Source: Chloroflexota bacterium
Lineage (GTDB): Bacteria > Chloroflexota > Dehalococcoidia > Dehalococcoidales > UBA5760
Direction of reading: 5' to 3'
Assembly (NCBI GenBank): GCA_015222205.1
Contig: JADFUW010000023.1
Coordinates: 1-61,165 of the forward strand
Length of the DNA: 61,165 bases
Shown here: in pieces, positions 4,976 through 44,656 of the stretch
How positions within the stretch are numbered: the first letter of the stretch is position 1
How the letters are laid out: each line of letters starts with the position of its first letter
The notes under the pieces: generated by a model
What the model saw: the letters and a program-made list of their open reading frames with translations, nothing else
The model's database searches: none
What the model was told of the DNA's origin: nothing
Made by a program: the position numbers and the translations under genes

Positions 4976-6803
4976 GACTCTGGTATTTTTGCTGGCAGGC
5001 TGGTTGCCAGCGCTGGAGTCCACAGGCACTGCAGTCTTGATAACGGCAATCAGGGGTCTCTTTGCTTTCAAGGGCATTCTTATATTCTCGCTTCATGAAG
5101 GCTTGCGTTATGCCAATATCAATATGGGCCCAGGGTAGCGGTTCATCCAGGGGGCGTTCCCGTTGAGCATAGAATTCGGCGTCAAGGCCAGCCTCTGTAA
5201 AAGCACGGAGCCAATTCTGGTAGTTAAAGTGTTCACTCCAGCCATCAAAAATTGAGCCCAATTGCCAGGCACGATAGATGACCTTGCCCAGTCGCCGGTC
5301 GCCTCGGGATAGGGCCGCTTCAAGCTGGCTAACCTTGGGGTCGTTCCAGGACAGCCTGATTTCCTTACGGCGTAGCCCCTGTTTCAGAAGTTCGTGTTTA
5401 GGGTTCAATTGCTCTTCGCTTTCCTGGGCGACCCACTGGAAGGGTGTGTGTGGCTTGGGAACGAAAGTAGCCAGGCTGATTCTTATCTGGGGCCTCCTCC
5501 CCTTAGTTTTTCTGCCCAGCGTGCTGACCTTGTCTACCAGTGTGATTATGGCTTCAACATCATCAGTAGTCTCGGTGGGTAGGCCGAGCATGAAGTAGAG
5601 CTTAAGGCCGCTCCAGCCGTGGGCAAAGGCTTCGGTGGCGGTTTCTAGGATGGCATCTTCCGGGGTATTCTTATTGATAGTCTGCCGCAGTCTCTTGCTG
5701 CCTGCCTCGGGGGCGAAGGTGAGCCCGGTTCTCTTGTGGGCTGCCAGAGAGTCCAGTAGTTTTACCGAAAAGCTGTCAATACGCAGGCTGGGCAGCGACA
5801 GGATGAGATTCTGGTCCTGATAGCGGTTAAATAACTTAGCTACCAACTCGTCAATATGAGGGTAGTCGCTTGAGCTTAGTGACATCAGGGAGACCTCATT
5901 ATAGCCGCAGTTGCTGATAAGCTCCCCGGCTGCCTGGAGCACCTCTTCCTGGGGGCGCTCACGCACCGGGCGGTATATAATTCCTGCCTGGCAAAAGCGG
6001 CAGCCACGGCTACAACCCCGCTGAATCTCTATCGCCCCCCGGTCGTGGACAACCTCAATATAGGGGACTACCGGCTTGGTGGCTGGAGGTGGTAGTTTGG
6101 TCACGAGCCGTCTCTTTATACGGGGACTAGCCTCAGCTACCATCGGGGTGATGCTCTTAAAGAGACCATCGGCTCCGTATGCCACTTGATACAGGCTGGG
6201 TACATAGATGCCGGGTATAGAAGCCAGCCGGCGCAGTAGCTCTCTCTTAGAAGCCCCCTTGTGCTTCCAGTCCCGGAGGCTGTCAAGTAGCTCAATGGTT
6301 ACCTCTTCCCCCTCTCCGATTACGAATAAATCAATGAAGTCAGCCATTGGCTCCGGGTTGAGGGCACAGCTGCCGCCGGCGATTACTACCGGGTGGGAAT
6401 CATTCCTCTCCGAGACCAGGACGGGTATTTGGGCTAAGTCAAGCATGTTTAGGACATTGGTGTAGGTAAGTTCATAGCCTAGGGAGAAACCAATAATGTC
6501 AAAATCTTTTAGCGGGCGCTGGGATTCAAGGCTTGGGAGGGGAATACCCCGGGCACGCATTACATCTGCCATATCCGGCCACGGGGCATAGACCCTTTCG
6601 GTGAGGACATCCGGCTGGCTATTGAGCAGCTCGTAGAGTATGGGCAGAGCCAGGGTGGACATGCCTATCTCATATAAATCCGGGTAGGAGAGGGCGACTC
6701 GAATATGGGTTTTGTCCCAGTCTTTGATGATACTGTTCCACTCGCCGCCGGTGTAGCGGGCGGGTTTTTTAACCTGATGCAGTATACTATCAAGCTCGGT
6801 CAA
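4956..6803 (-). CDS. B12-binding/radical SAM protein of the TIGR03960 type
   Basis: A 615-residue enzyme of unknown substrate. The N-terminal ~200 residues look like the cobalamin-binding-like fold seen in this family ([20 protein letters not shown], then [10 protein letters not shown]). The radical SAM cluster motif is [11 protein letters not shown], three cysteines in CxxxCxxC spacing, so it binds a 4Fe-4S cluster and S-adenosylmethionine. The C-terminal region carries more cysteines ([10 protein letters not shown]). Relatives often sit beside, or are fused to, a DUF2344 (TIGR03936) protein and the rplU-rpmA genes, but here the gene stands alone. Translation starts at TTG 6803, behind a GGAG ribosome site. 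It converges on gyrA and overlaps it by 20 nt. Confidence 0.85.
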
Positions 6804-16878: not shown

Positions 16879-16957
16879 GAATTTCTGCCTCAGACCAATC
16901 TTTTTATGTGGGCTAATCTCCTACTTTCAAACCGAAGTGAGCCAATCTTGTGTTTAC

Positions 16958-17009
16958 TCCTAGTTTCAAGCGTTAACCAAGGCTGTGCTATAATATCAGG
17001 TGTAGAGAT
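16958..17009 (+). repeat. Imperfect direct repeat, copy 1 (promoter copy in front of HEPN gene)
   Basis: Shares TTTCAAG, then a similar spacer, then the near-identical segment GCTGTGCTATAATATCAGGT and TAGAG, with 17900-17951 in front of prfA. The match weakens further upstream but stays recognisable (TGTG..TACTC). The two copies bracket the HEPN gene. Confidence 0.8.
16965..16994 (+). promoter_or_regulatory. Promoter of the HEPN-like gene
   Basis: TTCAAG (16965-16970), an 18-nt spacer and TATAAT (16989-16994). Because this promoter lies inside the longest possible reading frame (from 16906), the true start must be downstream, at ATG 17047. Confidence 0.6.
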
Positions 17010-17046
17010 AGTAGGAATCTGTCTAGGGGTAAGAGCGGGGGAAAAT

Positions 17047-17829
17047 ATGATTAAACAGCGCATATGGAGTTATATCCAAATTGGTACTGACCTCCGTTAC
17101 CTACAAGATGCCGGAGAGGGCTATTATCTGAAAAGAAAAGGTGAAGGTGGCTGGATTCTTGATAATATCAAGGAAACACTTGATGCTCTTGATAAGTTTG
17201 GACTCCCAGTTACTAAGCGAGCCTCCATAGAGTTACAGGAATTCTATAACAAACGTCGGAACTGTAAGTTTGATACACGGATTACGGCGGAGGAAGCTTC
17301 TAAATTAAATGGAATTATTAACACACTAAGGCATACTTTTACGTTTGAAGCTCAAGGCATATTCGCTTATATTGTGACTGACAAGAGGATAGATACAAAT
17401 AAGTTACTAAGCGATGTTCCTGCACTATTTAACAATGGAGTATTCCACCTAATGCCTGACATGGCTCAGTATGATTTTAGGGAAGCTGGGAAATGTATTG
17501 CCTATGAGTTACCGACTGCAGGTGCGTTTCACGTTTTACGTGGAACGGAATCAACATTACGTTTATACTATTGCAAGCATGTCAAGCGACGTCGTATTTC
17601 CACTCTATTATGGCGACCAATGGTAGAACATTTAAGAAAGTGCAAGAGACCAATATCTAAGATTCTCTTAGATAACCTTGACAATATAGCTGTTAATTTT
17701 AGAAATCCGACGGCGCATCCTGAATATAAATACGACATTAACGAAGTTCAGGGTTTATTTAATTTATGTGTCGATGTCAACAACAGAATGATTGGTGACC
17801 TAATTAAACATAAATTGATTTCCCCATAA
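17047..17829 (+). CDS. HEPN-domain-like protein, possible RNase/abortive-infection effector
   Basis: 260 residues from ATG 17047 (GGGGGAAAAT before it). A frame extending up to 16906 lacks a ribosome site and contains the promoter. The C-terminal third is helical and carries R219-N-P-T-A-H224, the R(N/D/H)xxxH motif of HEPN ribonucleases, preceded by FHVLRGTESTLRLYY, a helix often seen in C-terminal HEPN families. I do not recognise the N-terminal 150 residues, which look helical and include a basic GYYLKRKGEGGW stretch. The gene is clearly richer in A+T than its neighbours and is flanked by a duplicated promoter, so it was probably acquired. No antitoxin-like partner is adjacent. The role in defence is inferred. 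Confidence 0.6.
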   Translation: MIKQRIWSYIQIGTDLRYLQDAGEGYYLKRKGEGGWILDNIKETLDALDKFGLPVTKRASIELQEFYNKRRNCKFDTRITAEEASKLNGIINTLRHTFTFEAQGIFAYIVTDKRIDTNKLLSDVPALFNNGVFHLMPDMAQYDFREAGKCIAYELPTAGAFHVLRGTESTLRLYYCKHVKRRRISTLLWRPMVEHLRKCKRPISKILLDNLDNIAVNFRNPTAHPEYKYDINEVQGLFNLCVDVNNRMIGDLIKHKLISP

Positions 17830-41093: not shown

Positions 41094-41180
41094 AAGACGC
41101 TTGGTTCTCGATTTTGGCATATTTGGTAGGTGTTACCCTCAACCAGAGAGACGAGAGTCCCTTCTTGTAGAGATAGGGTA

Positions 41181-41209
41181 TTGACAAATGTCCATTATTA
41201 TGCTATTCT
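41181..41209 (+). promoter_or_regulatory. Consensus promoter of the 41244 gene
   Basis: Perfect TTGACA (41181-41186), 17 nt, TATTCT (41204-41209). The start site would fall near 41216, inside the adjoining palindrome. Confidence 0.75.
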
Positions 41210-41226
41210 AGTGTCCTGCGACACTA
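41209..41226. promoter_or_regulatory. Palindromic operator candidate at the start site
   Basis: TAGTGTC-CTGC-GACACTA: perfect 7-base arms around 4 bases. It begins on the last base of the -10 box and spans the predicted transcription start. That is the classic position for a repressor that blocks promoter clearance. It could also fold as a short 5' UTR hairpin. Confidence 0.55.
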
Positions 41227-41243
41227 AGTGCGCAAGGGGAAAT

Positions 41244-41555
41244 GTGTTACCCGGTAAAATGATAATATTGCTCGCTATCGCAGAAGCCAGAGGGTTTGGT
41301 GAAAAGGTACCAACCTGCTCGATAGGGGATATGTCGGGTGAATATGTTGGCCACTTACACTATTTACTGGTCAGGTGCGGCTATCTGAAGAGTAATAGTT
41401 TAGGAGAATGTCAACTTACCTCGAGGGGCAGGGGAGCCCTTATTGATTACCTGTATAAGGATACAGATATAGTAACAGGTGCGATAAAAAAGTTAGAAGA
41501 CAGACACATTGAGGTTGGTCCAGCGATAGATAAAGTTAAAAGGGGAGTCAACTAG
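41244..41555 (+). CDS. Small winged-helix-like protein of unknown function
   Basis: 103 residues if it starts at GTG 41244 (AAGGGGA just upstream, spacing short); ATG 41259 is an alternative. An extended frame from 41130 runs back through the promoter and can be excluded. The sequence IGDMSGEYVGHLHYLLVRCG, then YLKSNSLGECQLTSRGRGAL, reads like helix-turn-helix plus wing: a recognition helix followed by a strand-turn-strand ending in TSRGR, as in MarR/PadR-type proteins. The palindrome over its own promoter supports autoregulation. Family not recognised. Neighbours lspA and rluD give no clue to its job. Confidence 0.5.
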   Translation: MLPGKMIILLAIAEARGFGEKVPTCSIGDMSGEYVGHLHYLLVRCGYLKSNSLGECQLTSRGRGALIDYLYKDTDIVTGAIKKLEDRHIEVGPAIDKVKRGVN

Positions 41556-43058: not shown

Positions 43059-43123
43059 AATACTAAAGATTTAGGTGATAGAATGGGGGGGAAAGGGAAA
43101 TCAAAAGGAACTTTGGCGTTAAT

Positions 43124-43342
43124 ATGCCTAAACTGAAATCTAAGGTAGTTGAAGGGGATAAATTCTTTTACTCTGTTTCTTTTGACATAGATGATTTTAT
43201 TGGTGATGGCGTATGGTGGTTGGGAATTTATGATAGCCATCGAAATAAAATATATGATAAACCTCTTGCTTCAAGTATGGGCAAATCAGATATGTATCGG
43301 ATTGAAGATATTATCAAGCAAGAATTCTTAACATATAGGTAA
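43124..43342 (+). CDS. Small protein of unknown function, first gene of the EVE-nuclease cassette
   Basis: 72 residues, soluble: KFFYSVSFDIDDFIGDGVWW and LGIYDSHRNKIYDKPLASSM suggest a small beta-rich fold. No family recognised. The ribosome site AAGGAA lies about 13 nt before ATG 43124, longer than usual. It is A+T-rich like the next two genes and unlike rluD and gltX, and ends 12 nt before the EVE-nuclease gene. It may be an accessory, inhibitor or antitoxin-like subunit; this is a guess from position. Confidence 0.5.
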   Translation: MPKLKSKVVEGDKFFYSVSFDIDDFIGDGVWWLGIYDSHRNKIYDKPLASSMGKSDMYRIEDIIKQEFLTYR

Positions 43343-43354
43343 GGAGAATATGTT

Positions 43355-44386
43355 ATGAGAGCACATGTTTTTATAACCGATAAAGATACCTTCCCAGTAG
43401 TCAGAGATAACAGTTTTTGGGGCGTAGGGATAAAAGATATACCCAATACACTAGAGGAAGTAGTTAAGGAAAACTTGAGAAATGGTAAGAGACCATATTT
43501 TGGAATGATGGGTGATATTTTAGGTACACGAATAGGAGATGTGGTTTTTCTTTATGAAAGACAAATAGGATTCCACGGAATATATAAAATTACGAGTGAG
43601 CCATTTTTTGATGCTACGCCAATAGGATGTGTTGGGGAAATTTGGCCTATGAGGGTAAAGATAGAATGCTTAAATTATTTCCCTAAACCGGTGCCTGAAG
43701 ATTATCTATTCTCTACAAAAGAATATGAATCTAAATTTTGGGGGTGGTTTTATAGGAAAATACAGGGCGCAAGAGGAATTAACACTATAAATCCTGAGGC
43801 CACCGAAGCCCTTATTGAATTGCTTGTAAAGATGAACGGGAATGCCATAAATAAGCCCTCTTGGATTAAACCTTACCCCTCAAAAAATATTACTAAAATT
43901 ACCTTACCCTTAAATAGAGAGGGTAAAGTCTATTTGGAAGATATATTGAGAGCATGGTTAATTTCAAATATTGATAACCCCAACCGAAAAGATTTAAGGG
44001 ATATTTTTGGCCCTACCGAAGATATAGAGTGGTTTGCTAATAATGTGCCTTATCATGTTACACGAAAAAATATTGACGTCCTTTGTTATCATAAGAATAT
44101 GAAATATACAGGTTTCCCGCTAAGGTATCAATTTAGCGTTGTAGAATTAAAAAGAGACAGAGCCAAACCCGAAGACGTAACACAGGTTATCAACTACTCA
44201 AAATGGGTAGCGGGTCGGCTGGCGAACAATGAAATAGAAACTGTTCGACCTATTCTGATTGCTTTTGGTTTTGATGAAGAAACAATTACAAAAGCAAGAG
44301 ACAGTGATTTTAGCGACAGAGGAATCTCTCTTTTCCAATATGAGGTGAAAAATAGTGATTTAAGATTTGAAAAGGTGAGCGGATGA
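43355..44386 (+). CDS. EVE-like domain fused to a PD-(D/E)XK nuclease
   Basis: 343 residues. Residues about 1-115 resemble an EVE/PUA-type reader: FWGVGIKD, then GDVVFLYERQIGFHGIYKIT and SEPFFDATPI, then WPMRVKIECL. Such domains recognise modified bases in DNA or RNA. Residues about 190-310 look like a RecB/NucS-type nuclease: D241 in NIDVLC, E264-L-K266 in FSVVELKRD, and Q277-VIN-Y281, the D-ExK-QxxxY arrangement of PD-(D/E)XK enzymes. The combination suggests a modification-dependent endonuclease. It starts 12 nt after the 72-residue gene, behind AAGGAG, and overlaps the next gene by 4 nt (ATGA). The A+T-rich composition points to horizontal acquisition. Confidence 0.65.
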   Translation: MRAHVFITDKDTFPVVRDNSFWGVGIKDIPNTLEEVVKENLRNGKRPYFGMMGDILGTRIGDVVFLYERQIGFHGIYKITSEPFFDATPIGCVGEIWPMRVKIECLNYFPKPVPEDYLFSTKEYESKFWGWFYRKIQGARGINTINPEATEALIELLVKMNGNAINKPSWIKPYPSKNITKITLPLNREGKVYLEDILRAWLISNIDNPNRKDLRDIFGPTEDIEWFANNVPYHVTRKNIDVLCYHKNMKYTGFPLRYQFSVVELKRDRAKPEDVTQVINYSKWVAGRLANNEIETVRPILIAFGFDEETITKARDSDFSDRGISLFQYEVKNSDLRFEKVSG

Positions 44387-44640
44387 ATCGAAAAGAAGTG
44401 CCCCACAGAGTAACCCTATGGGAAAACGAAGACATAGATTACAATCACGTTCTATCTGATGGGTTTGGTATACCCGCAGTTGTCATATCATGTCCGATTG
44501 AAAGTGAATTTGGAAAATATACGGGTAAGGATGAATATGCAGAGGAGGTCGAAGGAATCAGCTTTGATGATTGCATGGACTGTGGGTTCTTTGGCGGATT
44601 TGGACTGGGACAAGAGATTTACTGCACTTACAAAAAGTAA
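44383..44640 (+). CDS. Small protein of unknown function, last gene of the EVE-nuclease cassette
   Basis: 85 residues; acidic, with VVISCPIESEFGKYTGKDEY and CMDCGFFGGFGLGQEIYC. The three cysteines (CxxC plus one near the C-terminus) could hold a metal or form a disulfide. It begins in a 4-nt ATGA overlap with the nuclease gene, so its translation is coupled. It ends 16 nt before gltX. No family recognised; a partner or immunity role is inferred only from the overlap. Confidence 0.55.
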   Translation: MNRKEVPHRVTLWENEDIDYNHVLSDGFGIPAVVISCPIESEFGKYTGKDEYAEEVEGISFDDCMDCGFFGGFGLGQEIYCTYKK

Positions 44641-44656
44641 AAGTTTGAGATGAGAT

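Follow-up and report, generated by a model that had tools for sequence, protein, structure and literature searches.

An EVE-like domain fused to a NucS-type nuclease in a candidate restriction cassette of Dehalococcoidales, with repeated loss of the neighbouring methyltransferase among its relatives

Results

A low-GC cassette between rluD and gltX

The stretch of DNA analysed here (the window; 61,165 nucleotides) is contig 17 of a Dehalococcoidales genome of 941 kb in 32 contigs, with an estimated completeness of ~90%. Three open reading frames (ORFs) designated A, B and C lie between rluD and gltX (Table 1). An earlier note had described them from the sequence as tightly packed and A+T-rich, and both descriptions held: each ORF was found in its place, the start of C overlaps the 3′ end of B by ATGA, and the GC content of the A-B-C stretch is 36–37%, as compared with ~50% around it. 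Third-position GC is 0.28–0.39 in A, B and C versus 0.57–0.60 in rluD and gltX. In all five congeners examined, rluD and gltX are directly adjacent, and B was not found in any of the eight congeners searched. Most simply, the cassette is a recent insertion between rluD and gltX.

Table 1 Features of the rluD-gltX interval and their positions in the window
Feature	Position	Strand	Description
rluD-gltX interval with cassette	43059..44656		1598 bp, versus 63–82 bp in five congeners
Gene A	43124..43342	+	72 aa; small family with the core FDIDDF.GDG....L..Y
Gene B	43355..44386	+	343 aa; EVE/PUA-like (~1–160) and NucS-type PD-(D/E)XK (~190–340); predicted modification-dependent endonuclease
Active-site span of B	43937..44197	+	Codons 195–281: E195, D241, E264-x-K266, Q277xxxY281, all invariant
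ORF C	44383..44640	+	85 aa; candidate gene in a variable small-gene slot; plausible start

Elsewhere in the window, a second low-GC patch (~39%; 16906–17829) holds a 307-aa ORF whose 261-aa portion starting at 17044 is without a match in Pfam, as is a 141-aa ORF upstream of rluD (41130–41555).

B joins an EVE-like domain to a NucS-type nuclease

B consists of an EVE/PUA-like domain followed by a NucS-type PD-(D/E)XK nuclease. For the window's B alone, the match to Pfam EVE is below the Pfam cut-off (E = 0.04, residues 59–123), and further matches were obtained to PRK00809, an EVE-type family (E = 6.5e-5, residues 61–114), and to NucS (E = 5e-4, residues 260–306). The EVE assignment is firm, as Pfam EVE is matched by all 18 members of the B family (best E 6e-9) even though the single sequence is sub-threshold; five of the 18 also match the EVE-like DCD domain. 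These family counts leave out L040 and L042, which are partial nuclease-domain matches, and L041, which is broken by unread bases. Invariant in the 18-sequence alignment are D62, G75, R100, E195, D241, E264, K266, Q277 and Y281, the last six of which are also invariant among the eight close homologues. The PD-(D/E)XK catalytic motif is thus complete, and the positions of D241, E264, K266, Q277 and Y281 that the earlier note had picked out proved exact.

An AlphaFold model of B, built from eight sequences, is weak overall (pLDDT 56; 66–86 across the last ~80 residues). The best fold matches of its N-terminal domain are the EVE proteins PH1033 and Rpa0253, plus YTH domains, and its C-terminal domain aligns to NucS/EndoMS with a Z score of 11.4 (rmsd 2.6 Å over 108 residues), the next rows being at Z 7.7 and the modification-dependent enzymes MspJI and AspBHI at Z 6.4–6.8. 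A search of PDB sequences with B gave no relevant match. Structure prediction, which had been proposed as a check, therefore recovered both an EVE-like N-terminal and a PD-(D/E)XK C-terminal domain in this weak model, and the nuclease is borne out by its invariant motif as well as by its NucS/EndoMS-like fold. The reader domain had been placed at residues 1–115; the family-wide EVE matches and the N-terminal fold uphold the domain itself, and its extent has to be revised to ~160.

This type of fusion is not new, since Bell, Wolf and Koonin (2020, PMC7641849) had already predicted EVE/DCD-PD(D/E)XK fusions to be type IV enzymes. B resembles those proteins in combining an EVE-like reader with a PD-(D/E)XK nuclease, in its patchy occurrence and in its defence-type context, but is set apart by the NucS-type core of its family, the small upstream partner A and the often-decayed neighbouring methyltransferase. 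EVE domains read modified bases, and the EVE-HNH enzyme VcaM4I flips 5mC/5hmC (PMC7897488). The two-domain layout of B, with an N-terminal EVE reader and a C-terminal nuclease, is that of VcaM4I, although the nuclease is HNH there and PD-(D/E)XK here, and the alignment of the B model's EVE part to VcaM4I is weak (Z 5.4, rmsd 4.8). MspJI and AspBHI likewise couple a PUA-superfamily reader to a PD-(D/E)XK nuclease; their reader, however, is SRA rather than EVE, and no sequence similarity to B was found. With NucS/EndoMS, B shares the C-terminal nuclease domain but neither the N-terminal domain, which is EVE-like in B, nor the genomic context; the NCBIfam NucS equivalog scores 19 bits on B against a cut-off of 216, over residues 260–306 only. 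The PADLOC candidate PDC-S02 is matched by all eight close homologues (best E 3e-7; residues 192–331 in B), the match being limited to the nuclease half. Neither a McrB GTPase nor McrC, the components of McrBC, is present in or beside the cassette, where B is accompanied only by A, C and the housekeeping flanks.

Relatives of B are patchily distributed across phyla

To find close homologues of B, 84,980 genomes were scanned. Eight close loci (the window and L081–L087), at 61–96% identity, were obtained from Dehalococcoidales, Stahlbacteria, Omnitrophota, Anaerolineales, Kapaibacterium and others; as all of them are on contigs of metagenome-assembled genomes (MAGs), single taxon assignments may be binning errors. 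The nearest relative found is a Dehalococcoidales MAG. Such similarity across phyla (61–96% identity), combined with neighbouring genes that differ from locus to locus, is indicative of horizontal transfer. B was found in 6 of 101 relatives and in 16 of 294 genomes of the class. One homologue (32% identity), without the small partners, is on a plasmid of the haloarchaeal Halobaculum. No relatives of B were found in phages, and viral contigs searched with A, B, C and three alignments yielded none.

Neither the window nor L081 has a working methyltransferase at the cassette locus. Between the two, the dN/dS of B is 0.068 (44.5 synonymous and 13.5 non-synonymous differences); B is thus under purifying selection and is retained as a working protein.

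The proximity of the nuclease domain to NucS/EndoMS, by profile as well as by fold, would be expected if B were a repair or housekeeping relative of these enzymes whose EVE-like domain serves to recognize mismatches or base damage and not the modifications of phage DNA. Such a role is improbable for a gene so patchily distributed and so similar across phyla; moreover, its low GC, the empty site in congeners and the pairing with methyltransferases described below are the behaviour of a defence gene.

The L081 cassette lies between topA and xerC and ends in the first 44 bp of a gltX (L081:7258–7301), which is identical to the window gltX at 41 of 44 positions. A complete gltX is found elsewhere in the L081 genome, far from the cassette, and matches the fragment at 37 of 44 positions (by eye). 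On the simplest reading of these sequences, the cassette would formerly have stood before gltX in a relative of the window's genus and taken a piece of gltX along.

A neighbouring methyltransferase is often truncated or absent beside intact B

At L082, a full-length N6_N4-type methyltransferase lies upstream of the B homologue and overlaps A. The methyltransferase of L083 has motif I and HPPYH, is ~35–40 residues shorter C-terminally and overlaps B directly. At L081, L084, L086 and L087 the methyltransferase is cut short upstream of the PPY motif, each time at a different point; these points may partly reflect assembly errors, and B downstream reads intact in each. L085 has no methyltransferase upstream of B and an unrelated restriction-modification (R-M)-like pair 1.9 kb downstream, and the window has no methyltransferase at the cassette. 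In total, the methyltransferase is truncated or absent in six of the eight close loci (from incomplete genomes), with B intact. When the genomes of L081, L085, L086 and L087 were searched with the L083 enzyme, no close second copy was found, a result in which a protecting methyltransferase elsewhere could be missed because the genomes are incomplete MAGs. In the window's genome, the best methyltransferase match is 33% identical and belongs to another R-M-like locus.

Among the more distant homologues, L027 (28% identical to B) has a methyltransferase of the same family directly upstream, L028 has a methyltransferase remnant cut after motif I, and L035 and L037 have a different methyltransferase downstream and an R-M-like look. 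Neither an adjacent methyltransferase nor a remnant was seen at 13 of 17 such loci, some of whose contigs end close by. An adjacent intact methyltransferase, the mark of a type II R-M system, is therefore present at L082 and L027 and absent from the window. As judged from these gene orders, a DNA methyltransferase is the first gene of the ancestral-looking cassette.

The truncated methyltransferases (L081:4935–5549, L086 ~5500–5970 and L087:5416–5877) keep a long open N-terminal part of ~140–200 aa that is 45–59% identical to L083. This part may be more than a decaying remnant.

The pattern of repeated methyltransferase loss beside intact B is the new element among these relatives. Loss of its methyltransferase is expected to make an endonuclease lethal to the cell, and a type II enzyme of the conventional kind should not persist after it. 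As the methyltransferase has repeatedly been lost or truncated with B intact, B seems to be tolerated without a cognate methyltransferase, which suggests an enzyme that spares unmodified host DNA. B could still act as the restriction half of a type II R-M system, with the EVE-like domain helping to recognize an unmodified target and another host methyltransferase of the same target acting as a substitute. The one methyltransferase family that adjoins B in L082, L083 and the distant L027, the different ones at L035 and L037, and the presence of other N6_N4-type methyltransferases in the window's genome would all suit such a system. It is nonetheless unlikely, as truncation at four points or absence in six of eight close loci left B intact, no close methyltransferase was found elsewhere in four of those genomes, and most distant loci carry neither gene nor remnant (with the reservation on contig ends given above). 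Decay of the methyltransferase next to an intact, selected B thus makes an ordinary type II R-M enzyme less likely and favours a type IV-like, modification-dependent nuclease.

A is a recurrent partner of B and the slot after B is variable

A is encoded directly upstream of B at four of the seven complete close loci (L081, 90% identity; L082, 54%; L084, 46%; L085, 58%), with FDIDDF and GDG strictly kept among its homologues, and is absent beside intact B at L083, L086 and L087. Its dN/dS is 0.14 between the window and L082 and 0.62 between the window and L081 (only 11 changes); A is therefore a real gene, perhaps loosely constrained lately. Family searches gave no significant match for A. Its profile found a match in its own genome only among 350 Chloroflexota, and 197 genomes of the class gave short chance-level matches only. 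An AF2 model of A (pLDDT 76) consists of four strands and one helix, has no PDB match and gave nothing below E 0.4 in Foldseek. One A homologue weakly matched Pfam Sp-CxC (E = 0.09), a match that is not significant and was set aside. A is dispensable, and is probably an accessory of B in stability, DNA binding or control.

For C, no homologue covering its length was found, and 201 genomes of the phylum gave short chance-level matches only. The downstream slot of L081 has the first ~40 bases of C in common with the window and then diverges; at L083, L084 and L085 another small gene follows the nuclease, and at least 12 of the 17 distant homologues have yet other small genes there. The downstream gene of L085 was not found in 294 genomes of the class, and plasmids yielded no relatives of A, of C or of the alternative downstream gene. 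A single family uniting C with the relatives' small downstream genes was also considered and rejected, as no similarity was seen. By comparison of the loci, the slot 3′ of the nuclease is variable and C is not an obligate part.

The earlier note had given the nuclease two small partners and had proposed the neighbourhoods of homologues as a check. Co-occurrence at L081, L082, L084 and L085 substantiates A, whereas C, with no full-length homologue and different small genes in its slot, drops out. Tight packing and the conservation of A and its two motifs at four other loci would accord with A, B and C acting as one dedicated defence system that requires both small proteins; with C retained nowhere and A missing beside intact B at three of seven loci, such a system is very unlikely. 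The fixed three-gene system envisaged at the outset accordingly finds no support, the recurrent ancestral partner being a DNA methyltransferase.

B as a proposed type IV-like endonuclease

The reading preferred here, to which a probability of roughly one half (0.52) is assigned, is that A-B-C is a horizontally acquired restriction cassette and B a type IV-like, modification-dependent endonuclease. In the proposed mechanism, B would recognize foreign DNA by a modified base, probably in a flipped-out state, that is bound by its N-terminal EVE/PUA-like domain. Cutting nearby would fall to the C-terminal NucS-type PD-(D/E)XK domain, which probably works as a dimer. For B, we infer the DNA substrate, the dependence on a modified base, dimerization, cutting and a defence against phages or plasmids. 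Ancestors of B would have been encoded with a DNA N6/N4-type methyltransferase whose gene was later lost or truncated repeatedly. Of the earlier claim of EVE-nuclease restriction, then, the fusion and the restriction-type context stand, the three-gene system does not, and modification dependence is retained as a prediction for B.

The main counter-evidence to the modification-dependent reading is the old association with a methyltransferase. It is explained either by an R-M ancestor or by a methyltransferase whose protection of host sites takes another form, as has been proposed for DCD-methyltransferase/nuclease pairs. The closeness of the nuclease domain to NucS, a repair enzyme, also counts against the type IV-like reading.

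A more far-reaching and tentative possibility is that a family of R-M endonucleases has repeatedly escaped its methyltransferase. The latter would have been truncated in independent events, and the EVE-nuclease, aided by A, would persist as a stand-alone, modification-dependent enzyme that moves between phyla. If true, this would make it visible how type IV restriction can evolve out of R-M. Repeated methyltransferase loss beside an intact, selected nuclease is a natural test of modification-dependent restriction arising from R-M pairs, and the locus points to a testable enzyme of unusual EVE/NucS make-up with an undescribed small partner.

Other small genes at restriction loci

At L029, a stand-alone DCD-domain protein (L029:7068–7508; Pfam E 8e-20) is encoded directly upstream of a B homologue. 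A family of 73–79 aa proteins (MLDR..V..EFLD...EDDYYEWLKDNFKSFF.HG.PDW; L067–L079, for example L029:8528–8749) was also observed in Dehalococcoidia. Its members adjoin TdeIII-type genes, HNH plus methyltransferase genes, EVE protein genes, GmrSD-type genes and B homologues, with a restriction or methyltransferase gene adjacent at 12 of the 13 loci found.
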